Of a stretch of 64,000 nt of DNA, positions 5,730 through 46,000 are shown in pieces. The notes below the pieces were generated by a model. That model had not been told where the DNA came from and ran no database searches. It was given only the letters and a program-made list of their open reading frames with translations. Numbering within the stretch: position 1 is the first letter of the stretch; each line of letters opens with the position of its first letter. This DNA is from Pedinophyceae sp. YPF-701 (taxonomy: Eukaryota > Chlorophyta > Pedinophyceae), in assembly GCA_916048055.1 (NCBI GenBank), contig CAJZHL010000002.1:620001-684000 (forward strand), given 5' to 3'. Position numbers and translations under genes: made by a program.

Positions 5730-8700
5730 ATGGGGTGCGGCGCGTCCGTGCCCGTGGGAGGCAGCACGGGGGACGTTGGGGTGCCAGAAACTCGAGCAAA
5801 TGACGAAGATGTACGAGGGAAGCTCATGAGTAAGGCAATCGTGGAATGGACGACCTCCGACGTGCGCGAATTCGTCGAGGGAGTCGCAGGCATTCCATAC
5901 AAGCGGTGCGTCGCGCTCGCGCGTGATGATCCTGATTCGGTCGCATGATGTCGTAGTCTTGTACTCAAGGAGTGCAACAGATGCTACAGGAGCAGCAGTC
6001 ACCGCCCAGGAGTGGGCCGCAGCCGAGGCAAGCTCCTCTCCGATGCAGGTCGAGCGAACTCCACCGAAACGAGCGTGATGTTGGGATTTTTGTGTGTGTC
6101 GCAGGTATCAAGCATCACTAGTTGTGCTTGACGGCCCAACAATGGTGCACCTGACCCGGGAAAGCGTCGCCGCAATCCCTGGCATGGACCCCATCTGGGC
6201 GGTGAAGCTCTGGACGGAAATAGCGCGTGCGTTGGACCAGCAAGGGTATCCGCTACAGAGCCAGGGGCAAGAACTTGCGTATGCGATGGCTCAGGTGCGG
6301 GAATCGCGCCTGTCAGAGCTTCCTCGAGCCGAAACGTTTCGTTGATGACCAGGCGCAAAGAGTGGCGTGGCGAGGGCATTTGGCAACGGGTCTGCGGCGT
6401 GAACATTCCTTGCAGCTTACGTCGTCCGTCGTGCACCGCGCACGCGCCCAGGGCTGCGGGCGTGGCAGCACGCCCGTGCACCTCTCACCGCGAAAGTTGC
6501 CCCCCTGTCGCCGCCCCCGTGCTCGGCCCCGACGAGCGCTGCCACACGTCTCGACTACATATGGAGCTGACGTGCCGTTCCGCTCGCAATACGGCGCAGG
6601 TGATGTCCGTCGGAACCGGGGGATCGGCCCGGTTCAGCCTGCCATCGCATCCAGCAGTGCGGGCGCTCAGAGGGTCCCAAACGACCGGCGCAGGTGCACA
6701 CCCGTGACCCGACCCTCTCCCTGGCATCCGTGCATGCCGAGGTGGAGGAATCGTCTCACCCCTCCTCCGTTATGGTTCTTTTTCCGACACTGCATCTCGA
6801 CGCAAGCGTCCTCACCGTTCAGGCCACTGAACCAGGCGTCCTCGCTCGCTGTGCGCAGTTGGCAAGATGGAGCAGAGCACCGGGGAACAGTCCGAGACGT
6901 TTTGCCCGGTGGAGGCGCCTGCTCCTGTGCAGCGACAGCCGGCGGAAGCAGCGCCTGGTGCTCCACCGCCGCCTGCGAGGATCGCGACGACCGAGCAGCG
7001 CGAGCTACCCGCGTCCGAGACGCACACGATCACGGCGTTGACGGGACAGGCGGCCATCGAACACAAGGAGGGTCTGGGTATGAAAGCGGTAGCTAAGGTG
7101 AGAAGCGCCACGCCGCCGCCGCAGGCACCGACTTCGCTCGGCGGCGCGCGCGAGGCGACCACTCGGGTGCCTGTGGCCGCCTATCGGCGCCTGTGGCGCG
7201 TGCGCCCGAGGCGGCCACGTACGCTTGTTTCGTCTGCGATGCACGCGCGCGTGGTGTTGGTGGACCAGACTGCGGCCCCGGCACCTGGGTCTGCAGGTCG
7301 AGAAGCTCCAAGGCGTTGCAGGCAAAGTCGCGCAGAAGGCCGGGAAGGTGGCCGGGATGATAGACACGGCAGCGGAGTTCCTCGACAGCGACGCTGGGCA
7401 GGCGCTCAAGACCGTTGGCGAGGCGGCGTACAAGGCGCTCGACGGCCTGTCGGAGCTCGCGAGCACCGTGCCGTTCATCGCGCCGCTGGGCATCGCGGTG
7501 AAGATGATCTTCAAGATCTGCAACAACGTGATGGCGCAGAAACGGAACTGCCAGAAGCTGCAGAAGATGGTCGAGGACATGGTGGTGGTGGTGATGGAGG
7601 CGAAGGACAGCCTGCACAAGTTCGAGAAGCAGGTTGGGGAGCTGGTCGACCTTATCAAGAAGGTGCGCGCCCAGTGGACTTCTCCGTGGTGCCCGTTTCG
7701 CGCTATGGCGCGGATCCGAACTTGTTCGCTTGTTGCGACCTGCGGTGCAGTGCCACGATTATTGCGCGAAGTTTGCGCGCGCTGGGTTCCTCAAGAAGCT
7801 GGCCAAGGGCATCGCGGACGACAAAACCTTTGAGCGGCTCGGGCAGCAGCTCGCGGACAAGATGGAGTACTTCGCCAAGGCCTGCGTCGCCACGACCACC
7901 AAGAACGTCACCGCCATCAACGAGAAGATGGACAAGATGATGGCGGAGCTGTCGTCGGGCAGCATGTTCGTGTCGGAGAGCAAGGAGATCAAGGAGCTGT
8001 GCGACTCGATGGGGGGGCTGGACGCGGTGATGGGGGACCCGGAGAAGATGAAGCAGCTGAGCGCGAAGATGAGCATCTCGGACCAGCTGCTGAAGGGCGA
8101 GATGGACGAGATCAAGGCGCTGATGGTAAGGATCGAGAGCCTTATATGCAGCAAGTTGTGTTGCCTTCTCCAGCCCGTGTGGACGGGACTGGACGTTTAC
8201 AGAGCCGAAGACCGCACGGCACCGCCGAGGCAGGTGTCACTCCACCCTATAACGGCGCCCTTGTGTGTGCTCAAGTGCGGCGCGCTGTATTTGGTCGTGC
8301 AGGACGAGGGCCCGCACAAGCTCATCTACCACGAGGACATCCGGGTCTTCTGGCGCATGAACTTCCGCTCCACGGAGGTCGCTTGGGACATATTCTTCCT
8401 CGGCTTCACCCAGCGCTTCCACGACATGCAAGGCTGGCTAGCCGAGAACGAAAAGAGCATGCGTCGGGTGCTCGACGTCAACGGCGACGGTGTCATCACC
8501 GCTCTCGAAGTCAACATCGCGTTCCCAGCGGACAGGTCCCTCCGCGAAGCGTTGGAGTTCTTGACGTCGCCGGGCTTCGTGAAAAACAACCTCCCGGACC
8601 TGCCGCGGAACTTCTTCGCGCGCGAGCGCAGCCAGCAGCGCGCAATCAAGCAGGTCTTCGAAAACGGCCAGGACAGTGTGTCGTGGCTGCAAATCGTCGG

Positions 8701-11700: not shown

Positions 11701-13895
11701 GAGCGCGACGCTCGGGGCGGAGCACTGGCGCGTGGGGCGGCTGCACGCGTACGAGGCGCAGTCGTACGAGCGGCTGGGCAAGCGTGCGGAGGCGGCAGAA
11801 GCGGTGCGCATGGCTGTGGACAAGCTGCAGGCGGCTCTGAGCAAGTCGCATCCGTTCGTGGGCGAGGCGCTGGCGATCCAGGGCGACGTGTATGCGGGGA
11901 GCGCGGAGTTTGACAGGGCGGTTGCGTCGTTCAGCGGCGCGCGCGAGATCTTCGAGAGGGTGCGGGGCGCGAAGCACCCGTCGGTGGCGAAGATGATGCG
12001 CATGACGGCGGAGATCGAGACGCGGCGCGGCGCGTACGAGGCAGCGACGGCGCTGATCAAGGGCGCGGAGGGCATCCTGGCGGAGTCGCTGGGGCAGATG
12101 CACCCGGAGATGGGCGAGGTGCACGAGGCGTTTGGCAGCCTGCTGCTGGCGACGGGCGACACGGCGGGGGCGCGGGAGCAGTTTGAGAGGGCGCTGCGGG
12201 TGCGGACGGCGGCGTTCGGGGAGGCGCACGAGAGCGTGGGCCGGGCGCAGCGTGCGCTTGGTCAGTCGTACATGGAGAGCGGGCAGTACAAGGAGGCGCT
12301 CGATTGCTTCCGAAAGGCGAAGGCGGCGCTGACGGAGGCGTTTGGGGAGGAGCACTGGCGCGTGGGGCGGCTGCACGCGTACGAGGCGCAGTCGTACGAG
12401 CGGCTGGGCAAGCGTGCGGAGGCGCAGGCGGCTGCAGAGGTGGGCGTGGCGAAGCTGCGGGGTGCGCTGGGAGCGGAGCATCCGTTCGTGGGCGAGGCGC
12501 TGGCGATCCAGGGCGACGTGTATGCGGGGAGCGCGGAGTTTGACAGGGCCGTTGCGTCGTTCAGCGGCGCGCGCGAGATCTTCGAGAGGGTGCGGGGCGC
12601 GAAGCACCCGTCGGTGGCGAAGATGATGCGCATGACGGCGGAGATCGAGACGCGGCGCGGCGCGTACAAGGGGGCGAAGCGTCTGCTGATGGAGGCGGAG
12701 ATCGCCTTGTCCGCGTCCCTCGGGGACCGACATCCGGAGATGGGCGAGGTGCATGAGGCGTTTGGCAGCCTGCTGCTGGCGACGGGCGACACGGCGGGGG
12801 CGCGGGAGCAGTTTGAGAGGGCGCTGCGGGTGCGGACGGCGGCGTTCGGGGAGGCGCACGAGAGCGTGGGCCGTGCGCAGCGTGCGCTGGGGCAGGCGGC
12901 CGCTGATGCAGGGCAGTATGAGGAGGCGGCGAGGTTCTTCACTGCTGCCAAGCAGACGTACATGCAGGCGCTCGACGAGAGCCACTGGCGCGTGGGCCGA
13001 GCGATGGCGCTGTACGGCGACGTGTGCACGCGGCTGGGACGCTTTGACGATGCAGCAACGAGCCTTGAGGGGGGAGTGAAGCTGATGGAGGCGTCGCTGG
13101 GCGAAGGACATCCCTACGCAGCAGAAGGAGTGGTGAGCAGCGGGACACGGTGCTGCTACTGTGCTCTGCGCTGGTCGGGCATAACAATGACCATGCTTGC
13201 AAGACTCATGATGGTTGACGTTCGATATTCCCGCGCAGGAGATGCGCGGCGATCTGTTGGCCGCCCAGGGCCGCTTCGACGAGGCCGTCGCGCTGCTGTC
13301 CAAGGCTCTGGACGTGTTCAGCACCGTGCGAGGCGAGCGGCACCCGTCGTGTGGGCGCGTGCTACGCAAGATCGGCGCTGCCCTGTCGACGCAGGGCAAG
13401 GTCGAGGAAGCCCTCGATCGCGTGACCAAGGCCGAGGAGATCCTGGCCGAGGCATATGCTGAGGGGCATCGCGAGCTCGGCGACGTGAAAGACGCAATGG
13501 GCAACATCCTGTACAGCTTGAAGCGCCATGACGAGGCGCTCGACGCGTATCAGGGCGCTCTTGATGTGTGGCGGGCGGCGCTCGGCGACGAGCACGAGCT
13601 CACGGGGCGCGGGATGCGCGCGGTGGCGCAGGCGATGATTGAGCTGGGCCGCGGTGCGGAGGCGAAGAATCTGCTCGACAGGGCACGCAGCATCTACGTG
13701 CGCGTGTACCAGGGCGAGGAGCACTGGCGCGTGATGCGCGTGGACGTGTGGCTGGGGCGCGCCCTGGTCGCTGCCGGGGACGCGGCGGCAGGGCAGAGCA
13801 AGGTGCAGAAGGCGGTCGAGGGGCTCGAGAGGGCGCTGGGCCAGAAGCACCCGGTGGTGGCGGAGGCCCGTGCGTGCCTGGAGGCGGTGGGGTGA
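5730..13895 (+). CDS. STAND/NLR-like protein A: acyl anchor, SAM, 4-helix-like region, EF-hand, NB-ARC, TPR array
   Basis: Eight exons (5730-5905, 6105-6294, 6600-6693, 6859-7097, 7297-7662, 7751-8125, 8303-13132, 13239-13895) join in phase to 2,308 residues. It begins MGCGASV, a typical N-myristoylation site with an adjacent Cys for palmitoylation. Residues about 34-115 resemble a SAM domain (IVEWTTSDVREFVEG ... IPGMDPIWAVKLW). Residues about 234-480 are alpha-helical, with a hydrophobic hairpin STVPFIAPLGIAVKMIF followed by a conserved amphipathic helix, recalling HeLo/MLKL/RPW8 cell-death bundles. An EF-hand loop DVNGDGVITALE lies at about 538-549. The NB-ARC-type ATPase has P-loop GDVGLGKT (613-620), Walker B MMVILDNIED (about 687-696) and an arginine-sensor-like VVSTSR. 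From about residue 1010 to the end run roughly thirty 42-residue TPRs of kinesin-light-chain type (GxxHPxVA ... G...EA...Y..A). Inferred role: ATP-switched signal receptor, perhaps in cell death or defence. The domain order is seen; the function is inference. Confidence 0.85.
11719..12920 (+). repeat. Tandem 630-bp TPR block duplication inside STAND gene A
   Basis: Two adjacent copies with a 630-bp period (210 codons, five 42-residue TPRs) begin near 11719 and 12349. Long stretches match base for base, for example the segment starting CGTGGGGCGGCTGCACGCG at 11731 and 12361, and GGGCGACGTGTATGCGGGG at 11881 and 12511. The copies differ in the middle of each unit. The paralogue downstream has one such block only, which explains most of the length difference between the two proteins. 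Confidence 0.85.
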
Positions 13896-14372
13896 GGCGC
13901 GCTGAGCAGGCACGTACTTCGCCGGGTGACGCACGCCGGGCGCAACATGCATGCCGCGTGGGGTCCCGAACGCGATGTTGCGCAGACGCCTTCGCGTCCG
14001 CGGCACGTCCGCAGCGGCGGGGGCGCTGTGCGGTAATGATTCCGATGTTTCAAGGTCCACCAGCCACAGCGAGGGCGATCGTGGTGTGAGTGTACAACAT
14101 GTGCCTCAGGGCACCTCCCAGCCGCTGTTTTGTCCGGTCCGGGCGGGCGTCCGCTTCAGCAGAGTACCTGATGGCATCGGAGGACGCCCACCGCGCTGTT
14201 TGATCGACTTTGTATGAGTCATGACGGAGGGGGGTGTAGAAGTGCAAGGGTCCGGCTCCTCGCGAATGCGCGACGTCTCGAGCCTCCTCGCCTGCGCGCA
14301 CCTCGCGCAGACCACATCACTCGTGAGGGCGATACGCTGCGATGCCGCGCGCTTGAGCCTGCGCCGGCAAGG
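13896..14372. other. Intergenic region between the two STAND genes
   Basis: About 480 bp separating the tandem paralogues, with only short open frames. I see no sequence shared with the region upstream of gene A beyond the start codon context, and no RNA gene or repeat. Confidence 0.5.
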
Positions 14373-17300
14373 ATGGGCTGCGGCGCGTCTGTGCCCGCCG
14401 GGCGCGGCACCGCGCTGCTTGAGCCACAGCCGGAGACGCGCGGGAGGCTCATGGGCAAGCCCATCGCAGACTGGAGCACGGAGGAGGTCCGCGACTTCAT
14501 ACAGCACGTCGCGGGCATCCCATACGACAGGTGCGGGCCGAGGAAGAGCGTGCTGGGGGGGGCCAGGCGTGCTGAACCAGACCGAAGCTCCCACGTTGAT
14601 TGCGGGACCATGCAGACCATCATACAGGCTACCTGTCTACCGCACGGCGTCTTGTTTCGCCGCGCATGGGTGCGCGGGTGGCCAAATGCTGTTCCCTTGC
14701 AGGTGACTTCCCGCCACTGACCATGAGGGGACGTACGGTGATTTCTTGCAGGTTCAGAGATTCCTTCATGGCTCTGAACGGCCACGCACTCACTCAGCTG
14801 ACTCGGGAGTCCATAAGTGCGGTTCCTGGACTGAACCCCATGTGGGCTATAAGACTGTGGGCTGAAGTTTCGGACGCCCTCGAGGAGCAAGGCTATCCCG
14901 TGCAAGGATTCGCTCTCGTTCAGGTGGGGTGACCACAGCCATCGAAGCGCACTACAGCGTCGACAGTGCTGCGCACGAGCTGCCAGTGGCAGTTGACCCT
15001 GTCTTGGGCCGGCGCGGGGACGCCCACTGCCTGTTTCTGAGGCCCTTGAGTCGCACATCTCGTTCCTTAGATCCTGAGTGGTCTGTATTGTTCTGCCCGG
15101 GAGTCGCGCGGAAGGAGACGCGCAACCCCGGCGCCCATGCAACACCGCGGCGGATGCCACGCCATCTTGCCGATCCACCCAGAACGGCGATGGCACGTGG
15201 TGGCCAGCCCCGATCGTGCACGGAAGCGACACGTCAACTCACAGCATCGCGCGCTGCCCGCCACTGCTGCAGGCGATGTCTGCTGGACCCGGCGAGCTCC
15301 CTCGCTTCAGCGTGGCGGGCGTCAGCGTTTCCGGACCGAAGGCTGCGAGGAGAACGGTCGCCGGGGCGTGCGGTGAGTGCCAGAGTGGTGTCGTAGCCGT
15401 TCGAGCATGTCGCCTGGGGCCCACATTGATTGCTGCTGTTGTCTATGCGTGCCGGCTGACGTAGACTCACGTGCGACAGCCGCTGCAGTCGCCCGTGGGC
15501 CGCGTGCATGCTCGCGTCAGCACGGCCGCGTACCGCGTGGTCGCCGGTGTGTACTCGCGTGACGGGAACAACGTTTCTGCCAATGCCATGCACGATGACG
15601 CTCGACACGCGGATCGTCTACGGCCACCTGCAGTTGACGACGATGCGTTGACGGCGGCCCGTTCGATGCCAGCTGGCACGGAGTTGCGGCCGAGGGGGGT
15701 GTCGTTCGCTGCCGGCGAGGACCCGAAGAAGACGCACAACATCACAGCCCTCACAGGGCAAGAGGAGATCGTCGAAAAGAACGCCGGGATGATGAAGGCC
15801 CTGGGCAAGGTGAGAATGACACGGGGACGCACAAGCTTCCATGCAAGAACATGGCCTATCACGGCGCCGTTGCCTGCAACTGCGCTCACAGCGCCGACTC
15901 CTGCGCGCGCACGTGACCAGTCGAAACTCGATTCTCTACCGAGGCTCCGCAGCTCGAGGGGATGGACGAGGGCCTGGCGGAGTTGGCGGGGAACGTGGCC
16001 GCCAAGGCTGCGGCGGTGGGCGGCATCGCGGAGAAAGCAATGGAGTTCTTCGATGGCGAGGCCGGAGAGGCGATCAAGCAGATCGGCGCGGCGGCGTACA
16101 AGGCTCTGGACGGCCTGTCGGAGATCGCGAGCACCGTGCCGTTCATCGCGCCGCTGGGCATCGCGGTGAAGATGATCTTCAAGGTGATCAACGGCGTCAT
16201 GGCGCAGCGGAGGAACTGCCAGAAGCTGCAGAAGATGATCGAGGACATGGTGGTGGTGGTGATGGAGGCGAAAGACAGCCTGCACAAGTTCGAGAAGCAG
16301 ATCGGGGAGCTGGTCGACCACATCAAGAAGGTGCGCAAGTGCCGCAACTCGTTGTAGCACGCACCTGCACGTCAGAGGTCGTCTGTCGCGTCGTGGTGTC
16401 TAGACACGGCGGGCGTATATCACGCGCTCGAAGCTAACATGCCGGCCGCGGCCGCTCCCCATGCGTGCAGTGCCACGACCACGTGGCAAAGTTCATGCGC
16501 TCTGGGTTCCTGAAGAAGCTGACCAAGAGCCTGGCGGACGACAAGCAGTTCGAGAGGCTTGCCAAGCAGCTCGCCGACAAGATGGACTACTTCGCCAAGG
16601 CCTGCGTCGCCACGACCACCAAGAACGTCACCGCCATCAACGAGAAGATGGACCAGATGATGGCGGAGCTGTCGTCGGGCAGCATGTTCGTGTCGGAGAG
16701 CAAGGAGATCAAGGAGCTGTGCGACTCAATGGGGGGGCTGGACGCGGTGATGGGGGACCCGGAGAAGATGAAGCAGCTGAGTGCGAAGATGAGCATCTCG
16801 GACCAGGTGCTCAAGGGCGAGATGGACGAGATCAAGGCGCTGATGGTGAGCCACGGATCGAGTGGGGACTGTGTCGGGACGCTCCTGCTCACGCGATCTC
16901 ACCTGGCTGCCACTGCCCCTGCACCGACCCGACGCTTGCGACGCTCCGATGCAGGACGAGGGCCCGCACAGGCTCATCTACCACGAGGACATCCGGGTCT
17001 TCTGGCGCATGAACTTCCGCTCCACGGAGGTCACGTGGGACATATTCTTCCTCGGCTTCACGCAGCGCTTCTACGACATCGAGGGCTGGCTCAAGGCCAA
17101 CGAGCAGAACATCCGGCGGGTGCTCGACGTGGACGGGGACGGCAGCGTCAACGCGTTGGAGCTGAACATCGCGTTCCCGGCCGACAAGTCCCTGCGCGAG
17201 TCGTTGGAGTTCATGACGTCGCCGGGCTTCGTGAAAAACAACCTCCCGGACCTGCCGCGGAACTTCTTCGCGCGCGAGCGCAGCCAGCAGCGCGCACGGA

Positions 17301-20300
17301 AGCAGCTGTTCGAGGGGCACGACTCTGTGCGCTGGTTGCAAATCGTCGGCGACGTGGGGCTGGGCAAGACCACGCTTGCGATGGGCGTCGGGCACGAAGT
17401 GGTGCAGCAGCGGCAGTGCGGGGGGGTGTTCTTCGTCGACCTGACGGGCAAGACGACGTCGGAAGCGGCGGTGTACGAGATCGGCGCGCAGCTGGACATC
17501 GCGGTCAACGACATCGACCACCTGGTGCAGGAGCTGCCGAAGAAGATCGAGAAGCTGTCGCCGCCGAAGATGATGGTGATCCTGGACAACATCGAGAACG
17601 TGCTGGAGGAGGACGAGGAGGACTTCGTCGACGCGGTGTCGTCGCTGCTCAACTCGGAAGAGCTCAAGGTCGGGCTGCGGATACTGTCGACATCGCGCGT
17701 GGAGGTGTCGGAGGCGATCCGCGACGACTACCTCGCGCCCGGCACGGGCCCGCCGACGGCTGTCATGCCGGTCGAGGAGATGACGCAGACCGAGATCACG
17801 AAGTGGGTGATGAGCTTCGTGCGCAGCGAGGAGAGCCAGATGAAGATCCGCGGCGAGCTGAAGAAGGCGCTGAAGAAGAGCGGGAGCACGCTGAAGCCGC
17901 TGCAGGTGCAGATGATCGGGAGCGGGCTGCAGCGCGGGAAGCCGCCGGACGTGGTCGTGGAGCGCGTGATCGCGCAGAGCGAGGACGGGAGCAACTGGGT
18001 GCTCAACTCTATCGCGGACATGAGCCCGGTGCTCCAGGAGACGTGCCTGCGGATGCTGGTGTTTCCGAGCACGTTCGACGAGGTCGCGGCGGAGGCGGTG
18101 TGCGGCGCGACGGTGGACATGCTGGACGAGCTGATGGAGTTTAACATCATCAAGATGTGCGAGGCGGGGCGGTACAAGCTGCAGGGGGAGATCCGGACGT
18201 GGTACAACTCGACGGAGCGGGGCACCGTCGTGCGGTCGAGCAAGCGCCTCGGGCACTTCGAACACGACGAGGGTCCGCAGTTCCGCAAGCATTACATGTC
18301 GGAGCTGCGGCGGTCCTACAAGCTGTTCGACTCGGCCAAGGTGGAGATGGGGCTGCAGTTCTTCGACCGGGAGCGGGCGAACTTCCACGTGCTGTTCTCG
18401 GAGGGGCCGAGCGGCATGTGCGGCGACGACACGCTGGAAACGGCCATTGACATCCTGCGCATGGACCAGATGCTGGACGCCCGTCTGACGATCGACGACC
18501 ACAACAGCCTGCTCAAGGTCGCGCAGACGCTGGTGGACTTCCCGCCCAGCCCCGCGCCCGCGCCGGAGCGGACGGCGGAGCTGCAGGCGGCGAAGCTGGA
18601 GTACGAGGGCATGGTGCACCAGAAGCAGGCGCGGTACAGCGAGGCGCTGGAGTGCTACCGGCAGTCGCGGGCGCTGCTGGAGTCGGACCTGCTGCGGGAC
18701 AAGACCCGGCTCCGGCAGCTGTGCGTGGCCAAGATCGGGGCGGTGCTGACCATCATGGGGCAGTACAGGGAGGCGCTGGGCGAGCTGCAGGGGGTGTTCG
18801 ACGCGATGCAGCAGGCGAGGTCGGCCGTGCAAAAGGAGGCGCCCAGCGACGAGGCGATGCTCGCCGCCCGCGACGCAGCGCTCTCGGCGACCCTTTTGGC
18901 CAACGTCCATGAGAAGACTGGTCACTTCGGTGAGGCGCTCAAGCTGTACAGCGACGCGGTGGCGCTGGAGCAGGAGGCGCGCGGCGGCGAGCACCCGTCC
19001 GTGGCCAAGTCGCTGACGGCGGTGGGCGCCGTGAAGGCGTCGCAGGGCCAGTACAAGGAGGCAGTTGCGAAGTATAACGAGGCTCTGAATATCTGCAAGG
19101 CCTTCTTCCACGAGGGGCACCCGCTGGTGGCTTCAACACAGAAGCGCATCGCGGACGTCAAGGTGCTGCTGGGCGAGCTGTCTGCAGCCGAGGAGATGTA
19201 CAAGGAGGCCCTGACTCACCTCCAGGAAGAGCTGGGTCCAAACCACCCGCAGTGCGGCGAGGCAGTGCAGGGGCTCGGGCAGGCAGCGCTGGGGCGGGCG
19301 GACTTCGACGAGGCGCTGTCGTGCTTCCAGAAGGCCGCGAAGATCTTCGCGAAGTCGCTCGGAAAGCGGCATCCGCAAACGGCATGGGTCAACCTTCCGA
19401 TGTCTGAGATCTACAGGCGGCGCGCGGAGTACGCGCAGGCGAGCGAGCACGCCGAGACGGCGCTGTCGACGCTGGTGGAGGTGGTCGGGGACCAGCACCC
19501 GGACGTGGGCGACGTGCTGGAGTCGAAGGGTGAGATCGCCATGGCTCTGGGGAGGTTCGGGGAGGCGGAGCAGCTGTATACGCAAGCCCGAGCCGTCTTC
19601 GAGAACACATTCGGCGCGGAGCACCCCGCCGTCGCGCGGACCTGGCGCGCGCTGGGCGAGGTGTCGGCCGCGCAGGGCTTCTACGCTAGGGCCATTCACG
19701 AACTCGAGCGCGCGCGGAGCATCTTCGAACAGTCCCTCGGCAAGGAGCACTGGCGTGTGGCCCGCGTGCGTGTCCGCGCCGGCGACTGCCGCCGCGAGCT
19801 CGGCCAGACGGACGCGGCGCGCGCGGAGTACGACGCGGCGCACAGCGCACTCACTGCGTCGCTGGGCGAGCGCCACCCCATCACGGCGGAGTGCATCAAA
19901 GGCATCGGGGACCTGCATCTCGACAAGGCCGAGTTCGGCGAGGCCTCGGAGCTCTACCGCTTCGTGATTTCGGTGTTTGGGGAGAAGCGCGGCCGCGCCC
20001 ACCCCAGCGTCAACGCCCTCCGCCTGGAGCTGGCGAACGTGCTGATCCGGCGGGGCCTGTACGCGCAGGCCGAGGAGACCCTCGAGGAGGCCAGCGACAG
20101 CGCCGGCACGATCCTCGAGAAGCGCCATCCGTTCTGGGCCTCGCTGGCGGAGAGCCGTGGCAACCTGGCGCGGGAGCAAGGGCAGACCGGCGCCGCCGTG
20201 GACTGGTACTCGCAGTCGCTCGTGCTGCGCAAGGAGCTGCTCGGCGACTCCCACTCCTCCGTCGGGGTGTCGAGCCGCGCCCTCGGGCAGGCATTCATGG

Positions 20301-22051
20301 ACGACGGCAAGTACGAAGACGCGCTGCAGTGCTTCAAGGACGCGGAGGAGGTGTTCACGAACAGCCTGGGGGAGTCGCACTGGCGCGTCGGACGGCTGCA
20401 GGCGTACGAGGCGCTGGCCAACGACCGCCTGGGTCGCAGGCAGGAGGCCGAGTCCAAGTGCGTGCAGGGGGTGCGGAAGCTGCGCGAGGCGCTCGGCGCG
20501 ACGCATCCGTTCCTCGGGGAGGCGCTGGCCATCGAGGGGGAGATATTTGCGAGCGGCGCGGACTTCGACAAGGCCGTGGCGGCGTTCGGGGCCGCGCGGG
20601 AGATCTTCGCAGCGGTGCGCGGACCACAGCACCCGTCCGTGGCGCGCATGAAGCGCCTGACCGCGGAGATCCTCTGTCGGAAGGGCGAGTACGCTGAGGC
20701 CACGACGCTCTTGAACGAGGCCGAGACGTCGGTGCGCGTGATGCTGGGGGAGGCGCACCCGGAGATGGGTGAGCTGCACGAGGCGTTCGGGAACGTGTGT
20801 CTTGCGACGGACGACCAGACGGGCGCGCGGGCGCGATTCGAGCGCGCGCTGGAGGTGCGGCAGGCTGCGTACGGGGACACGCACGAGAGCGTGGGGCGGG
20901 CGCTGCGGGGGCTGGGGCAGGCGGCCACGGAGGGCGGGGCGTACAAGGAGGGGCTCTCGTTCTTCGCGCGCGCGAAGGACACGTACGCAGCGGCCCTGGG
21001 GGCTGAGCACTGGCGGGTGGGGCGGGCCACGGCGATGTACGCGGACGTGTGCGCGCGGCTTGGGAAGTTCGACGAGGCGCAGGCGTGCTTCGACGAGGGC
21101 ATCAAGCTGCTGCGGGCGGCGCTCGGGAGCGAACACCCGTTCGTGGCGGAGGCCATGGTACGTCGTCTTGCGCGTCAGGCTCGCAGGATCTCATGTTGCA
21201 AACCACGTGTTCTGCTTGCGTGTCGAGACGCCCACGCGCGGCCCACATCGTGTCGAATCGCTCGCGTGCTGCAGGAGCTCGAGGGCGACGTCAAGGCCGC
21301 GAAGGGGAACTTCGAGGGCGCCCTCACTTGCTACATGGAGGTCATTGCGGTGTTCCGCCAGGTGCGGGGCGCATGGCACCCGTCTTGCGGCCGCGTCCTG
21401 CGCAAGATCGGCTCTGTGCGGTGCAAGAATGGCGACGAGGACGCCGCGAGCGAGGCGCTCAAGCAGGCGCGGGAAATCGTGCGTGCCGCCTTTGGCGACC
21501 AGCATCGCGAGCTCGGCGACGTTGCGGAGGGTTTCGGAGACCTGTACATGCGCCAGAAGCGGTATGACGACGCTCTGGGGGCGTACGAGCAGGCCCGAGA
21601 CGCCTGGGTGGCCTCGCTTGGCAAACAGCACGAGCTGGTCGGGAGGGGCATGCGGGCGATGGCACAGGCGATGCTGCAGCTGGTGCGACTCGCACGTGAC
21701 CGCACGCTGTCATGAGTTGCAAGCTGCTGCACTGCGTCCTCAAACGGGCGCACCGAGACGGATTGAGGAACATGTTGGTCGTTGCTTTTGTGCTTGCAGG
21801 GTCGAAACGACGAGGCGAGGGACCTGCTCAGGGAGGCTCGCGACATCTACGTCAACGCGTACCACGGCGAGGGCCACTGGCGCGTCATGCGCGTGGACAT
21901 GCTGCTCGGTCAGGCCATGGCTGCGTCGGGCGACGTTGCAGGCGGCAAGGCCCTGGCGGAGCGCGCCGTCGCGGGCATCAAAGCTACGCTAGAATCATCA
22001 GACCCGGTCGTCGCCGAAGCGGACGCTTGCATGGCGGCCGTCTCGTCGTGA
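14373..22051 (+). CDS. STAND/NLR-like protein B, tandem paralogue of A
   Basis: Nine exons (14373-14530, 14752-14923, 15273-15372, 15634-15809, 15953-16330, 16471-16845, 16955-21157, 21275-21682, 21800-22051) join in phase to 2,073 residues. Intron positions and phases match paralogue A throughout, except for one extra intron near the 3' end (21683-21799). The protein repeats the same order: MGCGASV lipid anchor, SAM-like domain (about 28-110), variable linker, helical region with STVPFIAPLGIAVKMIF (about 203-453), EF-hand DVDGDGSVNALE (about 511-522, all acidic ligands present), P-loop GDVGLGKT (about 585-592), Walker B, then kinesin-light-chain-like TPRs. The linker exons 3 and 4 have diverged strongly, while helical, ATPase and early TPR regions are nearly identical to A. 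It lacks one five-TPR block present in A. Likely a membrane-tethered signalling ATPase; ligand and output are unknown. Confidence 0.85.
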
Positions 22052-38458: not shown

Positions 38459-41400
38459 ATGTCGTTCCGTTTCCCGGCTTTGTTGGCGCTGGTGTGCGCG
38501 CTGCTGGGCGCGCTCGCGCCAGCCGCCCATGGCGCAGACGAGTGCATCCCGGCGGGACAGTTCGACCCTGATGTCGACCTGTTTCCCGCGGGCACCAGGA
38601 CGACTGCCGCCGACGACAACTGGATGAGCGAGGAAGCGACGGTGCGCGCCCCCGCTACACGCCGCGGCGGGGCTGTGAGCGGTGGTGCTGCCCCCACGCA
38701 CCGCCGGCAGTGCCAGGCGCGCCGATTCAGATCTCCGCCGCGCCAGCGCACTCGTGGTGGACCGCTCGTTCGCACGTGGATCAGAGCTCGTGGCTTCGCT
38801 TTGCCCCCACGGCGCCCGCGCAAGATGCCCTGCTGCGCCGCTGCCGGCTGGGCGTGGTGTCGACACCACGTCCTGACCGACCCCCACAGCGCGTCTGGTC
38901 ACTACACGTGCATGGAGCGTGTCCGTTTCAGTTGGCCCCGATCACGGACGTCCGGGGCAATGAAGGCTCGCGCCACAAACGCAGCGGGCATCAGGAGAGC
39001 ACCCTGAGCGCCCCGTTTGGAGTAACGCGTGGGTGTTTTGCGGGTGTGTGCGCAGGTGACGTTCGCCAATCAGTTCCAGGTGCAGTACAAGAACTACTAC
39101 AAGGTCGTGAACAACATTGAGGCCAAGGAGCAGTACATCCTGTGGCAGTGCGGCTCCCAAGTCCCGCCGTCGGGCGAACTCACCACCGCGCTGACCCAGG
39201 CGAATACCACCTTCGGGATCCAAACCCAGGCAAGCCAGGCCCGCCGCCTGCAACACAACCCGCGCCCGACAACGCACCCACAAGACACACACCTTACCTA
39301 AGACCCAAGCCAAGCTGCGCCCACACAGCGCCGACACACCGGGGCGCCCAGCGCGCCGCAGGCGGTCCCCGCAGCACCGTGGCCCCCAGGGCACCTCACT
39401 GGTCCCGCGCGCGCCCCCTGTGTCCGCAGAAGGTGTTTCAGATTCCCCTGAAGCGCGTCGCTGCCGAGTCGACTGTCTCCCTCACCTTCCTCGAGATCCT
39501 CGGCGTGTGGGACCGCCTCTGGCACATCCCGTCCTGGGCGGCCTCGCCGTGCCTCCAGGCTGCCGTCAGCAGCGACTCGTGCACTGCGGGGGGCAACGCC
39601 GTTGCGCTGGGGTCGTCCTTCTCGTCGCCGGACCTGCGTGCGGCGCAAGTGGGCAACGTGTCGGCGATTTTCACGGACGTGGCGGACGCGTCGAACGCCA
39701 AGGCCGTGGTGTTCAGCGGCTCGCAGGACCCTGGGTCGCTGAACCGCATGGAGTGGATCAAGTTCGTGGCGACGTTCTTCAACCAGGAGCGGTCCGCGGT
39801 GTCGCACTTCAACCGCGTCAGGGGTGAGTACGAGGTCCACGTCAGTCAGGCGGCGTCTGCGGCGGCGGCCGGGTCGAAGAAGACCGTCGCCTGGGTGGGC
39901 TACACGGGTCCGTTCTTCGGCGACACGTACTACCTGTCGTACGCGGCGTTTAAGATGGACCACATCACGGACGCGGGCGGGGCGGCGGTGTCGAAGGACG
40001 CGGTGCTGGCGGCGGCGACGAACGCGACGGACGACGCGGGGCTGCAGCAGGTGCTGTTCAAGGCGTCGGACTACGGGGGCGCGCGTGAGGCGGCGCACGC
40101 GCTGCTGGCGGCGATCAAGGACGTGGACGTGGTGGTGGACGAGGCGTACTCGGGGTACGGGGTGGCGGCGGCGACGTTTGGGGTGTCGGACACGGTGAAC
40201 TACGACTTCGGCGTGGCGTACCGGCTGAACGCGACGACGGACGGGGCGTTGGTGTCGTCGCTGCGCTTCTTGCAGGCGGGGGGCGCGGTGTACCGGCTGG
40301 ACGCGACGGTGTCGGAGGGGAACGGGCTGGACTGGTTTGAGAGTGCGCTGCCGCACCCGAACCGGGTGATGCGGGACTTTTTGTGGGCGCTGCAGCCGGG
40401 GGCGCTGGAGGGGGCGGCGACGTACAAGCCGCACTACCTGCGGAAGATCGCGCCGGGGGCGGCGGGGTCGCCCACCATCATGCGCAGCTCCGACTGCCCG
40501 ACGGGCGGGCTCCCGGTCTGCTCGGGCGTGCAGCCCTCGGTCCTGTGCGCCACGTGGGACTTCCGCACGTGCCCCGACGGCACCCGCGTGTGGCGCGAGG
40601 GGGAGGAGTGCCTGTACTACGGGCAGTGCTCAGTCGAGTGCGTCTCGGTGTTCCGGCCGACGACGAACTACTTCCCGGACGGCTCGCAGGCCTCGGGGTC
40701 GGGCTCCGAGATCGTGTCGTCCGCGCAGACGGTCCAGTTTGCGGACCAGTTTGCCATCAGCTACCACTCTTACTACAAGGTGGTCACGCAGATCGAGTCG
40801 GGCGAGCAGTACGTCCTGTGGCAGTGCGGAACGAAGGAGCCGTCGCAGACAGAGCTCCAGACGCACCTGTCGGACGCGCAGGCCACGTACAACAAGACAC
40901 TGGTCCAGAAGGTGTTCCGGATCCCCCTGAGCAAGGTCTCCACGGAGTCGACCGTGTCCCTGAGCTTCCTGGACGTCCTCGGCCTCGACGACCGCATCTT
41001 CCACTTCGCCTCGTGGACCACGTCGGCCTGCTTCCAAGACGCGCTGCAGCGCCACGAGCAGGGCTCGTGCGGGTCCCGGGCGCTGCCGCTCGCGCTGTCG
41101 TCGGACGCCGAGGTCAAGGCCCGGCAGGTCGACGCGACGGACGCCTTCATGGCGGACTACCCCGGCACCGACGCGAAGCATGTGGCGTTCACTGGTTCGA
41201 AGGACCCGGGCACGCTGAACCGCATGGAGTGGATCAAGTTCATCGCCGCGTTCTTCAACAAGGAGCGCGACGCGAACGTGCACTTCGACAAGGTCGCCTC
41301 CGAGTACGCCGAGCACAAGCGGGACGCCGAGGCGGCGGCGGCGGCGGCCGGGTCGAAGAAGACCGTCGCCTGGGTGGGCTACACGGGTCCGTTCTTCGGC

Positions 41401-42621
41401 GACACGTACTACCTGTCGTACGCGGCGTTTAAGATGGACCACATCACGGACGCGGGCGGGGCGGCGGTGTCGAAGGACGCGGTGCTGGCGGCGGCGACGA
41501 ACGCGACGGACGACGCGGGGCTGCAGCAGGTGCTGTTCAAGGCGTCGGACTACGGGGGCGCGCGTGAGGCGGCGCACGCGCTGCTGGCGGCGATCAAGGA
41601 CGTGGACGTGGTGGTGGACGAGGCGTACTCGGGGTACGGGGTGGCGGCGGCGACGTTTGGGGTGTCGGACACGGTGAACTACGACTTCGGCGTGGCGTAC
41701 CGGCTGAACGCGACGACGGACGGGGCGTTGGTGTCGTCGCTGCGCTTCTTGCAGGCGGGGGGCGCGGTGTACCGGCTGGACGCGACGGTGTCGGAGGGGA
41801 ACGGGCTGGACTGGTTTGAGAGTGCGCTGCCGCACCCGAACCGGGTGATGCGGGACTTTTTGTGGGCGCTGCAGCCGGGGGCGCTAGAGGGGGCGGCGAC
41901 GTACAAGCCGCACTACCTGCGGAAGATCGCGCCGGGGGCGGCGGGGTCGCCCGCCATCATCACCGCGTCATCCTGCCCCAACCCAGGCGGCCTTGCCGTG
42001 TGCACCAACGACCCCTCGGCCGTGTGCCCGGCCTGGATGTTCCGACAGTGCCCGGACGGCACCATCAAGTTCCTCATCGCCCCGGCCTGCACCGAGTACG
42101 AGGCATGCCCAACAACGGCACCCCTGCCCACCCAGGCGGGGCTTCCAGCCGCCGTCCCGACCGCCGCGCCCGTGACGACCGCGCCGGTGTCCGCGTTCCG
42201 CGTCTCGTTCGAGCTCACGGTCGCCGTGGAGGAGCAGCAGCTGGAGCAGGCGCGGTCCGCCATTGTTGCGACAGCGTCTGACAAGGCCGGCGTGCCTGAG
42301 TCAGCCGTGTCGGTCGAGATGACCCCTGTGCGGCGGGCGCTGCTCGCGACGAGGAGCTACCGCACGGTCGTGTCCATCAACGCGGCTAGCCAGGGCGAGG
42401 CGACCCGGGTGTCTAGAACGATGGAAGCGCAGACGTCCTCGGGGCTCCTGAGCACCGACGTCATCACGGAAATGGAGCGGAGGGGTGTGTTCGGGGCCAC
42501 GGTCACCGTCGTGCGCAGCCCCACCATCGGCGACGGCGCCGGCATCCCCAACACGGCTGCCACTGCGCGCGCGTGTGTGCTGCTGTCGCTGTGCGCCATC
42601 ATCGCTGCTGTGGTGGTGTAG
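38459..42621 (+). CDS. Secreted, probably GPI-anchored protein with two TroA/FecB-like substrate-binding domains
   Basis: Exons 38459-38641, 39056-39229 and 39430-42621 give 1,182 residues. Residues 1-25 are a signal peptide (MSFRFPALLALVCALLGALAPAAHG). Two similar halves follow. Each has an N-terminal unit (NYYKVV or SYYKVV ... QYILWQCG), a TESTVSLxFLxxLG segment, an RMEWIKFxAxFFN helix and a long conserved C-terminal lobe. This pattern is that of class III periplasmic binding proteins, which bind siderophores, haem, cobalamin or metals. A Cys-rich link (CPDGTRVWREGEEC) joins the halves. The C terminus ends in a small domain and a hydrophobic tail (ACVLLSLCAIIAAVVV) typical of GPI attachment. 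Intron 2 appears to have a GC donor (ACCCAG|GCAAGC). Likely surface uptake or storage of a metal complex; the ligand is unknown. Confidence 0.8.
39861..41952 (+). repeat. Internal near-identical 613-bp duplication (39861-40473 and 41340-41952)
   Basis: Two copies 1,479 bp apart (493 codons) within the substrate-binding gene. Reading both, I find one difference, G at 40407 versus A at 41886, which is synonymous. Sequence before 39861 and after 40473 diverges sharply, so the homogenised tract has clear edges. Confidence 0.9.
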
Positions 42622-43098: not shown

Positions 43099-46000
43099 TC
43101 AGAGTCCAACAGTCTCCTCGAAACTGTCACTGGTACTCAATGGCATGTATGAGGTATCGACGTCATCATGGTCAGGTCCATTGCGAAGAAACTCCCCGCC
43201 CTCCACCTCCACCCTCGCACCCTGCATCTCCCATGTCCCGTGACCTCCGTTGTCGCTGCACGTCGCGCCCCGCACCGTCACCACCGTGCCTTCGTCCGCC
43301 GCAAGCACGCCGCACCCATTATTGCGGCAGCACTCCCCTCCCTCCACCACCGCCCTCGCCGCAAGACAGCCCTGTATCCCGTGGCCTTTGTTGTCGTTGA
43401 CCGTCGCGTCCCGCACCGTCACCACCGTGCCCTCGTCCTTCGCAACCACACCGGACCATTCGTTGCGGCAGCACTCCCCTCCCTCCACCTCCGCCCTCGC
43501 AGCAAGATCCACGGCTATCCCGTAGCATTGGTTGTCGTTGCATCTCGCGCTCCGCACCGTCGCCACCGTGCCCTCGTCCATCGCAACCACGCCGCAGTCA
43601 CCGTTGCGGCAGCACTCCCCGCCCTCCACCTCCACCCTCGCACAATCATGCCCGACTATGCCGTGGCCTTTGTTGTCGCTGCACGTCACGCCCCGCACCG
43701 ACACCGCCGTGCCCTCGTCCATCGCGGCCACGCCGCAGTCATCGTTGCAGCAGCACTCCCCGCCCTCCACCTCCACCCTCGCCGCAAGTTCTGCATGTAT
43801 CCCGTTGCCTTTGTTATCGCTGCACGTCGCGTCCCGCACCGTCACCACCGTGCCTTCGCCCCCGCCACCACGCCGCAGTCACCGTTCCGCAGCACCCCGC
43901 CTCCACCTCCGCCCTCGCACCACCACTCCCCTGTATCCCGTTGCATTGGTTGTCGCTGCACGTCGCGTCCCGCACCGTCACCACCGTGCCCTCGTCCGCC
44001 GCAGCCACGCCGCACTTGTCGTTGCGGCAGCACTCCCCGCCCTCCACCCCCACCCTCGCACCACGGCTTCCCTGTATCCCGCTGCCTTTGTTCTCGCTGC
44101 ACGTCGCGCCCCGCACTGTCACCGCCGTGCCCTCGTCCTTCGCAACCACGCCGCAGTCATCGTTGCGGCAGCACTCCCCGCCCTCCACCCCCACCCTCGC
44201 GCGACTCTGCCCGACTATGCCGTGGCCTTTGTTGTCGCTGCACGTCGCGTCCCGCACCGTCACCGCCGTGCCCTCGTCCATCGCGGCCACGCCGCAGTCA
44301 TCGTTGCGGCAGCACTCCCCGCCCTCCACCTCCACCCTCGCACAAACATCGCCCTGTATCCCGTGGCGTTATTGTCGTTGCACGTCGCGCCCGCACGTCA
44401 CCACCGTGCCCTCCTTTGCAACAATGCCGCACGACTCGTTGCGGCAGCACTCCCCGCCCTCCACCTCCACCCTCGCACCACTCTCCGCATGTATCCCGTT
44501 GCATTGGTTGTCGTTGCACGTCGCGCCCCGCACTGTCACCGCCGTGCCCTCGTCCTGCGCAACCACGCCGCAGTCGTCGTTGCGGCAGCACTCCCCGCCC
44601 TCCACCTCCACCCTCGCACAATCATGCCCGACTATGCCGTGGCCTTTGTTGTCGCTGCACGTCACGCCCCGCACCGACACCGCCGTGCCCTCGTCCATCG
44701 CGGCCACGCCGCAGTCATCGTTGCAGCAGCACTCCCCGCCCTCCACCTCCACCCTCGCACCACTCTCCGCATATATCCCGTTCGCTTCATTATCGCTGCA
44801 CGTCGCGTCCCACACCGTCACCGTGCCTTTGTGTGCCGCAGCCACGCCGCACCATTCGTTGCGGCGGCACTCCCCGCCCTCCACCTCCACCCTCGCACCA
44901 CCACTCCCCTGTATCCCATGGAGTTTGTTCTCGCTGCACGTCGCGTCCCGCACCGTCGCCACCGTGCCCTCGTCCATCGCGGCCACGCCGCAGCGATCGT
45001 TGCGGCAGCACTCCCGCCCTCCACCTCCACCCTCGCACCACGATTGACCTGTATCCCGTGGTGTTTGTTCTCGCTTGCACGTTATCGCCCCGCACTGTCA
45101 CCGCCGTGCCCTCGTCCTGCGCAACCACGCCGCAGTCGTCGTTGCGGCAGCACTCCCCGCCCTCCACCTCCACCCTCGCACAATCATGCCCGACTATGCC
45201 GTGGCCTTTGTTGTCGCTGCACGTCACGCCCCGCACCGACACCGCCGTGCCCTCGTCCATCGCGGCCACGCCGCAGTCATCGTTGCAGCAGCACTCCCCG
45301 CCCTCCACCTCCACCCTCGCACCACTCTCCGCATATATCCCGTTCGCTTCATTATCGCTGCACGTCGCGTCCCACACCGTCACCGTGCCTTTGTGTGCCG
45401 CAGCCACGCCGCACCATTCGTTGCGGCGGCACTCCCCGCCCTCCACCTCCACCCTCGCACCACCACTCCCCTGTATCCCATGGAGTTTGTTCTCGCTGCA
45501 CGTTATACGCCGCACCGTCACCACAGTGCCCTCGTCCGCCACAGACACGCCGCACTTGTTGTTGCGGCGGCACTCCCCGCCCTCCACCTCCACCTGCGCA
45601 CCATGGCTTCCCTGTATCCCGTGGTGTTCGTTGTCGCTGCACGTCGCGCCCCGCACCGTCACCGCCGTGCCCTCGTCCATCGCAACCACGCCGCACTTGT
45701 TGTTGCGGCAGCACTCCCCGCCCTCCACCTCCACCCTCGCACAATCATGCCCGACTATGCCGTGGCCTTTGTTGTCGCTGCACCTCACGCCCCGCACCGT
45801 CACCATCGTGCCCTCGTCGTACGCTTCCATGCCGCAGTCATCATTGCGGCAGCACTCCCCGCCCTCCACCTCCACCTGCGCATGCGCGTGGACTCGCTAT
45901 CGGACGTGTCACGACAGCGGGTATCATACCCACGCGACGGACCTGGCGGGCTGCGGTGTGTTGGCGGCACGATTCATACCTTGGCACTTTGTTCCACCCG

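Follow-up and report, generated by a model that had tools for sequence, protein, structure and literature searches.

Tandem NLR-type genes with a predicted MLKL-like four-helix bundle in the chlorophyte Pedinophyceae sp. YPF-701

Genes A and B and their relatives in the genome

The window analysed here is a stretch of 64,000 nucleotides (C2:620001-684000) from the genome of Pedinophyceae sp. YPF-701, a marine chlorophyte since renamed Akinorimonas japonica, whose strain YPF-701 is the same as NIES-2566 (PMC12574857). It contains two adjacent genes, A and B, whose predicted proteins have the layout of receptors of the nucleotide-binding leucine-rich repeat (NLR) type and are the subject of this report. 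A preliminary description of the locus, made from the sequence alone, had given these proteins 2,308 and 2,073 residues and a common order of parts, and rebuilding the tandem genes by comparison of the two loci reproduced exactly these lengths (Table 1). All 15 introns (7 in A and 8 in B) are of the GT-AG type, and the two genes share their phase at each of the six exon junctions upstream of exon 7. A deposited protein from the same organism, P0002 (2,073 aa), is identical to the model of gene B, and a second, P0001 (2,237 aa), corresponds to residues 72-2308 of gene A; as the deposited version of A starts at Met72, the exon encoding MGCGASV and one half of the SAM domain are missing from it (5730-6143 being omitted). 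Support for the exons comes from the agreement of the two paralogues together with the deposited models, of B in its entirety and of A from Met72. Both proteins carry, in this order, MGCGAS, a SAM-like domain, a helical region, an EF-hand loop, a P-loop, a Walker B motif and an array of tetratricopeptide repeats (TPRs), and the two are 82% identical across the EF-hand and NB-ARC stretch of A (8303-9700). PADLOC returned TPR and TRIP13 matches only.

A search of the 27.9-Mb genome showed A and B to be two of at least seven family members, each combining a SAM domain, a four-helix bundle (4HB), a STAND ATPase and TPRs, the gene counts given here being lower bounds because the search scores only the best candidates. 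Gene C, on contig C9, encodes MGCGASV, a SAM-like domain, a 4HB, an EF-hand (DLDLSGEVTVVE), a P-loop (GGNGTGKS) and a short TPR array; when counted by hand, its intron within the SAM domain proved to be the same phase-2 intron. The exon of C that holds the brace and EF-hand, used as a query, found four more genes, L019 (C10), L020 and L021 (both C24) and L022 (C5), whose translations contain a SAM domain, a 4HB, a brace segment of the form GG-[LM]-x-AV, a STAND-like core and 42-aa TPRs, so that every one of the seven NLR-type members has a 4HB and brace of its own. In a genome-wide NB-ARC search the cut-off was reached only by A and B, and a Pfam census would therefore miss the other five members. 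C and L019-L022 were not recovered among deposited proteins in searches restricted by length and shared 5-residue words.

Domains of the predicted proteins

The helical region, which had at first been called cell-death-like, was identified by independent profiles as a four-helix bundle of the MLKL/HeLo/RPW8 kind. With a long N-terminal stretch as query, the Pfam model MLKL_N (PF22215) matched A with an E-value (E) of 1.8e-5 and B with 6.4e-5, both below the cut-off. When the domain was cut out, MLKL_N was the top Pfam model in all seven paralogues (E 2.4e-6 to 0.0015), passing the curated cut-off of 27 bits in A only (E 2.4e-6, 27.6 bits) and remaining below it in B (6e-6, 26.3 bits), C (0.0015), L019 (6.1e-5), L020 (4.2e-5), L021 (3e-5) and L022 (8.8e-5), while the RPW8 model gave weak matches in five of the seven (E 0.0048-0.082). 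In gene C the 4HB exon alone had a single Pfam match, to HAMP_2 (E 0.034), and the MLKL_N match appeared once it was joined to the next exon. As a single-sequence search of the Protein Data Bank (PDB) with the N-terminus of A yielded chance matches only, profiles built from the paralogues were needed; with the seven-paralogue 4HB profile, the first six of the 19 rows and the eighth were MLKL (best E 8.8e-4), the seventh going to a restriction-modification protein (E 0.03). By profile match, the helical region of A and B is assigned to the MLKL/HeLo/RPW8 four-helix superfamily.

The same genome holds six genes in which a 4HB-type N-terminus is followed by a protein kinase, located on C1, C6, C2 (113 kb), C9 (66 kb), C31 and C10 (1.42 Mb). 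MLKL_N matches five of the six (E 2.7e-7 to 0.0056), the gene on C31 is counted among them because its N-terminus is 40% identical to that of the C6 gene, and a kinase domain was found in all six. In hhalign, the 4HB profile of these kinase genes matched that of the NLR-type proteins (92.5%). Behind the kinase, a right-handed beta-helix scored over the cut-off in the genes on C6, C9 and C10 and below it in that on C1 (E 7.4e-4), the scan having covered the last parts of the C2 and C31 genes incompletely; listed by locus, the beta-helix is clear in L017, L023 and L015 and weak in L014. In the four kinases that were read (L014, L015, L017 and L018) the catalytic lysine and the aspartate of the HFD/HYD motif are seemingly present, and DFG is replaced by DFQ in all of them except L015, which keeps DFG. 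The N-terminal frame of the C31 gene (L024, 4179-5471) also holds MGCSRR, another possible acylation start. A further candidate on C8 (L016) was rejected, its MLKL_N match being chance-like and the long frame there (4648-6309) encoding an MSP-domain protein with internally repeated segments.

The ATPase was assigned to the NB-ARC type, as had been proposed, on the strength of Pfam scores of 26.7 bits in A and 29.2 bits in B, both over the cut-off of 23.5, and of the motifs present in the two genes, namely the P-loop GDVGLGKTT, the Walker B motif MMVILDN and an RNBS-B-like motif. Searched against the PDB, the ATPase profile returned Apaf-1 in 4 of 30 rows (E 0.0036) and CED-4 in 1 of 30 (0.13). 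The listed Pfam matches of A and B, which cover 25 of 41 families for each exon 7 and also exon 8 of each gene, include no kinase, and those of the main exons (again 25 of 41 families per exon) include no TIR domain.

The acylation motif and SAM-like domain of the preliminary description were likewise found in both genes. MGCGAS begins five of the seven paralogues (A, B, C, L019 and L022), L020 and L021 starting with MWCC and MECD, respectively, by start codons picked by eye; we take MGCGAS to be a probable motif for N-myristoylation (Gly2, Ser6) and palmitoylation (Cys3). Single-sequence Pfam matches of the N-termini to SAM models all fell below the cut-off, including SAM_Ste50p in C (E 0.29) and SAM_3 in L021 (0.0092), and two of the six SAM N-termini (L019 and L022) had no Pfam match. 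A profile built from six of the paralogues gave a significant result against the PDB, with the SARM1 SAM domain at the top (E 5.7e-4), followed by polyhomeotic (0.0032) and ETV6 (0.0036). Of the 39 rows, 35 are proteins with a SAM/PNT domain, and the remaining four comprise ribosomal proteins and glutathione transferases, two of each. In SARM1, the SAM domain is the oligomerising part of a death protein.

The preliminary description had also placed an EF-hand loop in A and B and regarded the proteins as calcium-modulated. The loop is present as described, with a canonical 12-residue form in A, B and C, and it is single and unpaired in each, the best EF-hand Pfam E being 0.016, 0.047 and 0.14, respectively, and the Dockerin model matching slightly better than the EF-hand models. 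Canonical EF-hand loops usually come in pairs. As the EF-hand is single, weakly matched by profiles and intact in only three of the seven paralogues, having degenerated in L019-L022, we treat calcium control as no more than a possibility: located between executioner and ATPase in A, B and C, the loop could gate activation by calcium.

Table 1. Positions of the features of genes A and B in the window, and of the six 4HB-kinase genes under their own loci
Feature	Position	Strand	Details
Gene A	5730..13895	+	8 exons, 2,308 aa; GT-AG splicing, phase agreement with B
Gene A exons	5730-5905, 6105-6294, 6600-6693, 6859-7097, 7297-7662, 7751-8125, 8303-13132, 13239-13895	+	
Gene A N-terminus MGCGAS	5730..5747	+	sequence
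Gene A SAM domain	5826..6246	+	aa 33-106; intron 1 (phase 2) splits the domain; Pfam SAM_PNT E 0.19
Gene A MLKL_N-type 4HB	7501..7924	+	aa 302-413, exons 5 and 6; Pfam PF22215, PDB profile search
Gene A EF-hand loop DVNGDGVITALE	8474..8509	+	Pfam EF-hand_5 E 0.016, below cut-off
Gene A NB-ARC/STAND core	8633..9073	+	P-loop 8699-8725, Walker B 8921-8950, STSR motif 9032-9049
Gene A TPR array	9932..13847	+	about 29 kinesin-light-chain-type units, 42 aa each
Gene A tandem duplication	11561..12820	+	630 nt = five TPR units, not in B; ends approximate
Gene B	14373..22051	+	9 exons, 2,073 aa; splicing, identity to deposited P0002
Gene B exons	14373-14530, 14752-14923, 15273-15372, 15634-15809, 15953-16330, 16471-16845, 16955-21157, 21275-21682, 21800-22051	+	
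Gene B N-terminus MGCGAS	14373..14390	+	sequence
Gene B SAM domain	14451..14887	+	aa 27-98; Pfam SAM_PNT E 0.012, below cut-off
Gene B MLKL_N-type 4HB	16169..16644	+	aa 275-386; Pfam MLKL_N, PDB profile search
Gene B EF-hand loop DVDGDGSVNALE	17126..17161	+	EF-hand_5 E 0.047
Gene B NB-ARC/STAND core	17276..17725	+	P-loop 17348-17374, Walker B 17570-17599, STSR motif 17681-17698
Gene B TPR array	18596..21994	+	about 24 units
4HB-kinase gene L014	4886-8479		
4HB-kinase gene L015	4805-9113		
4HB-kinase gene L017	4768-9498		
4HB-kinase gene L018	2802-5188		
4HB-kinase gene L023	4556-8015		
4HB-kinase gene L024	2274-5471		on C31

TPR arrays and divergence between copies

TPRs, in the dozens first described, occupy the C-terminal parts of A and B, and the listed Pfam matches of the two genes include no LRR model. 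With a profile built from the repeats of A and B themselves, 29 of 31 listed units in A and 24 of 25 in B had an independent E-value below 0.01, and Pfam TPR_12 matches numbered 16 in exon 7 of A and 2 in its exon 8, the corresponding exons of B having 15 and 3 such stretches. The five additional TPRs of A stem from a single tandem duplication. The repeats also match the nephrocystin-3 model PF24885. Against the NCBIfam model FxSxx_TPR, which describes a bacterial TPR protein, the main exons of A and B scored 297.1 and 258.8 bits with a cut-off of 300, the best stretch in each falling within the TPRs.

Positions 2, 5, 9, 12, 13, 33 and 34 of a TPR form its variable, concave ligand-binding face (Magliery and Regan, PMC1261162), and variation at this groove was analysed in A, B and L020-L022, with C and L019 left out. 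A pattern search of L020-L022 gave 32 distinct units, from which 29 in-frame units were kept and three were dropped (two for frame breaks and one for a codon deletion). Among those kept, mean entropy was 2.33 bits at groove positions versus 0.83 elsewhere (permutation P 4e-5), and the ratio of nonsynonymous to synonymous change (pN/pS) was 2.22 in the groove (bootstrap 1.83-2.83) versus 0.86 elsewhere (0.74-1.02), a groove value that random sets of seven positions equalled in 102 of 5,000 trials. These figures are to be read with the provisos that units of one array are duplicates of each other and may convert, that groove positions vary in TPRs generally, that codon bias in a GC-rich genome depresses synonymous change, and that two of the three arrays contain frame breaks. 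Such a hypervariable groove in L020-L022 is as would be expected for a recognition surface.

Synonymous divergence between A and B is a mosaic, amounting to 0.17-0.39 over the 4HB, the brace, the EF-hand, the ATPase and the helical stretches that follow and to approximately 0 at residues 1001-1080, but reaching 1.6 in the SAM domain, 2.5 in the linker and as much as 2.1 at the C-terminus. This looks like gene conversion that keeps the cores similar and lets the ends diverge. The ratio dN/dS is near or above 1 in some windows of the A and B comparison, such as residues 161-200, 801-840 and 881-920; as these windows lie inside the mosaic of converted stretches, we make no claim of selection from them.

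Elsewhere in the window, one open frame at 39121-42621 encodes two similar lobes that weakly resemble periplasmic binding proteins (Peripla_BP_2, E 1.9e-4, short of the cut-off). About 600 nt, offset by 1,479 nt, are 98-100% identical between the lobes, a pattern that a recent conversion would leave. At 43191-45876 lie approximately 19 tandem copies of a 141-bp unit; the array shows strong strand asymmetry and all three forward frames are open over long stretches, a Pfam scan of two of them giving no match.

Candidate receptors with a putative built-in executioner

We read A and B as membrane-anchored switches of the NLR (STAND) type with a built-in MLKL-type executioner, and put the probability of this reading at roughly 60%. 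The NLR-type layout proposed earlier is borne out by an NB-ARC domain over its cut-off, a TPR sensor and an N-terminal effector domain. As the evidence from A and B concerns their anatomy and relationships, we infer every functional step from NLRs, SARM1 and MLKL. The MGCGAS terminus would be acylated and hold the protein at the membrane, where the TPR solenoid, as in NLRs generally, would fold onto the ATPase and keep it off until a ligand is bound. Binding of that ligand in the TPR groove would lead to nucleotide exchange, upon which the STAND core and SAM domain would assemble an oligomer, and the clustered four-helix bundles, by analogy with MLKL, HeLo and RPW8, might then permeabilise the membrane and so kill or signal. 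The EF-hand may conceivably make one step responsive to calcium.

Several observations weigh against this reading. In the PDB search with the ATPase profile, two other AAA ATPases outrank Apaf-1, 6p8v (E 3e-6) and 6pb3, 'Rhizobiales Sp. Pch2' (2.4e-4), and the winged helix lacks a conserved MHD motif, the corresponding position, judged by eye, reading YKMEAEI in A and YKLQGEI in B; this motif is also missing from many non-plant STAND proteins. Four of the seven members have arginine for lysine in the P-loop (GAPGSGRR in L019 and GSPGSGRR in L020-L022) and lack an EF-hand loop, and the TPR arrays of L021 and L022 contain frame breaks, with unit spacings of 125 and 124 nt versus 126, which may be either assembly errors or gene decay. 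The groove signal is absent in A (2.50 bits in the groove and 2.24 elsewhere, 21 units) and in B (2.54 and 2.11, 13 units), and the duplicated units of A have a pN/pS of 0.75 in the groove versus 0.74-0.78 elsewhere. The helical region has a further match to T4_CASP, a model of a phage scaffold (E 0.0043 for A and 1e-4 for B), which we take as a likeness of coiled helices. AlphaFold models were of low confidence, with a mean pLDDT of 39.4 for residues 1-984 of B (5 rows) and 51.6 for the 4HB and brace (12 rows), and both are given no weight either way; a Foldseek search with the second returned 230 matches at E up to 10 and none at 0.001, with vinculin tails at the top of the list and MLKL absent from the best 50 of the 230, and this too was given no weight.

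The bundle might alternatively act as a signalling or membrane-targeting adaptor, with A and B being NLR-like receptors that recruit the separate 4HB-kinases, which would do the killing or signalling. Six such kinase genes in the same genome, with bundles related by profile to those of the NLR-type proteins, fit this arrangement, and PMC12881547 describes fungal NLRs whose activated 4HB executors are separate proteins; yet each of the seven NLR-type members has its own 4HB and brace, as in the single-chain executioner NLRs of fungi described in the same source, and we consider recruitment of this kind unlikely. The match of the TPRs to nephrocystin-3 and their kinesin-light-chain length, the lack of a groove-specific excess of amino-acid change in A and B, and the presence of STAND-TPR proteins with regulatory domains among the bacterial-type matches of our searches would all suit a non-immune STAND-TPR scaffold whose bundle and SAM domain serve assembly only, for instance in cytoskeletal, flagellar or developmental signalling. 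We regard such a scaffold as quite unlikely, however, given that the 4HB profile leads to MLKL and RPW8, that the family is multicopy with N-terminal parts not found in the other proteins returned by the limited searches, and that changes in TPR number, frame breaks and groove hypervariability in three members are unlike a housekeeping gene. A last alternative retains the executioner mechanism and has the repeats recognise self, in allorecognition or mating, rather than pathogens. Some fungal NLRs with similar repeat evolution do act in vegetative incompatibility (PMC4986451, PMC12881547); here we hold recognition of self to be very improbable.

The reading of A and B as NLR-type proteins with an MLKL-type executioner places them in a known kind, which we call them members of, set apart by the acylation motif, SAM domain, EF-hand loop, TPR sensor and lineage. 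In fungi, NLRs with an MLKL/HeLo domain on the same chain are known, and the basidiomycete BaMLKL and the ascomycete HeLo and HeLo-like NLRs combine, as do A and B, an MLKL-related 4HB with a STAND ATPase (PMC9815663, PMC12881547). Fungal NLRs may also end in TPR arrays, for which positive selection on the concave side has been described (PMC4986451). In the sections of these sources at hand, no SAM domain, EF-hand or acylation motif is mentioned for BaMLKL and the HeLo NLRs, the term EF-hand being absent from PMC9815663, whereas the algal A and B have them. Plant NLRs of the RPW8 (CCR), CC and Cbl-N types share with A and B a four-helix N-terminal domain and an NB-ARC, and are reported from land plants and streptophyte algae (PMC11218826, PMC10952240), but they carry an LRR sensor as a rule, in contrast to the TPR sensor, SAM domain, EF-hand and MGCGAS of the chlorophyte proteins. 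Among chlorophytes themselves, the NB-ARC receptors on record are a TIR-NB-LRR in Chromochloris, an NB-ARC/APAF1_C/WD40 protein in Tetraselmis and an NBS-LRR in Ulva, for which the accessible parts of the sources report none of the 4HB/MLKL, SAM, EF-hand and acylation motif that A and B possess (PMC7145615, PMC8891106), and associations of NB with TPR are known from brown algae and bacteria (PMC7145615). The MLKL of animals and plants has an N-terminal 4HB that is homologous to that of A and B by profile, followed by a pseudokinase where A and B have NB-ARC and TPRs, and in layout the six 4HB-kinase genes come closer to MLKL than A and B do. SARM1 shares its SAM domain with A and B, being the best PDB match of that profile, but has a TIR NADase and differs in ATPase and executioner.

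The suggestion of the preliminary description that no described family unites all of these parts is consistent with our protein searches and with the open-licence literature. The protein searches scored 7,994, 7,989 and 7,996 candidates and returned 2, 4 and 14 proteins, the two of the first search being A and B themselves and 11 of the other 18 having bacterial-type names and 7 none. None of these 18 contained either domain when scored with the 4HB and SAM profiles (best E 0.93 for the 4HB; 0.025, 5.6 bits, for SAM), and no recognisable fungal protein was among those returned by these length- and word-limited searches. A scan of viral contigs matched 88 stretches and confirmed none. In the open-licence literature, no paper combining four of the five parts of the architecture and no pedinophyte NB-ARC protein was found, and a search for MLKL together with chlorophytes gave, by title and abstract, only one review concerning NLRs (PMC10952240).

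Taken together, the seven receptors and six kinases might represent a complete necroptosis-like immune system of the chlorophyte's own, in which SAM-4HB-STAND-TPR receptors, most of them bearing the acylation motif, stand beside the 4HB-kinases, one set (A, B and C) keeping an intact P-loop and EF-hand loop and the other (L019-L022) having lost the P-loop lysine, with quickly changing ligand grooves in three of its members; we advance this tentatively, as possible rather than probable. A division of labour in which A, B and C would be executors and L019-L022 sensors is speculation from their P-loops. Executioners of the MLKL/HeLo/RPW8 superfamily are known in animals, fungi, land plants and streptophyte algae, and the chlorophyte NLR-type proteins reported in the sources available to us carry TIR, LRR or WD40 domains. 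If such a system exists, a single chain of a unicellular organism would unite what in animals is distributed among SARM1 (SAM), Apaf-1 (NB-ARC) and MLKL (4HB). The family places candidate self-killing receptors in a free-living unicell, has a bearing on the age and modularity of the death machinery of plants and animals, and suggests that unicellular algae may run an immune-style suicide system, and strain YPF-701 would offer a small, culturable alga in which to ask what a unicell gains by dying.

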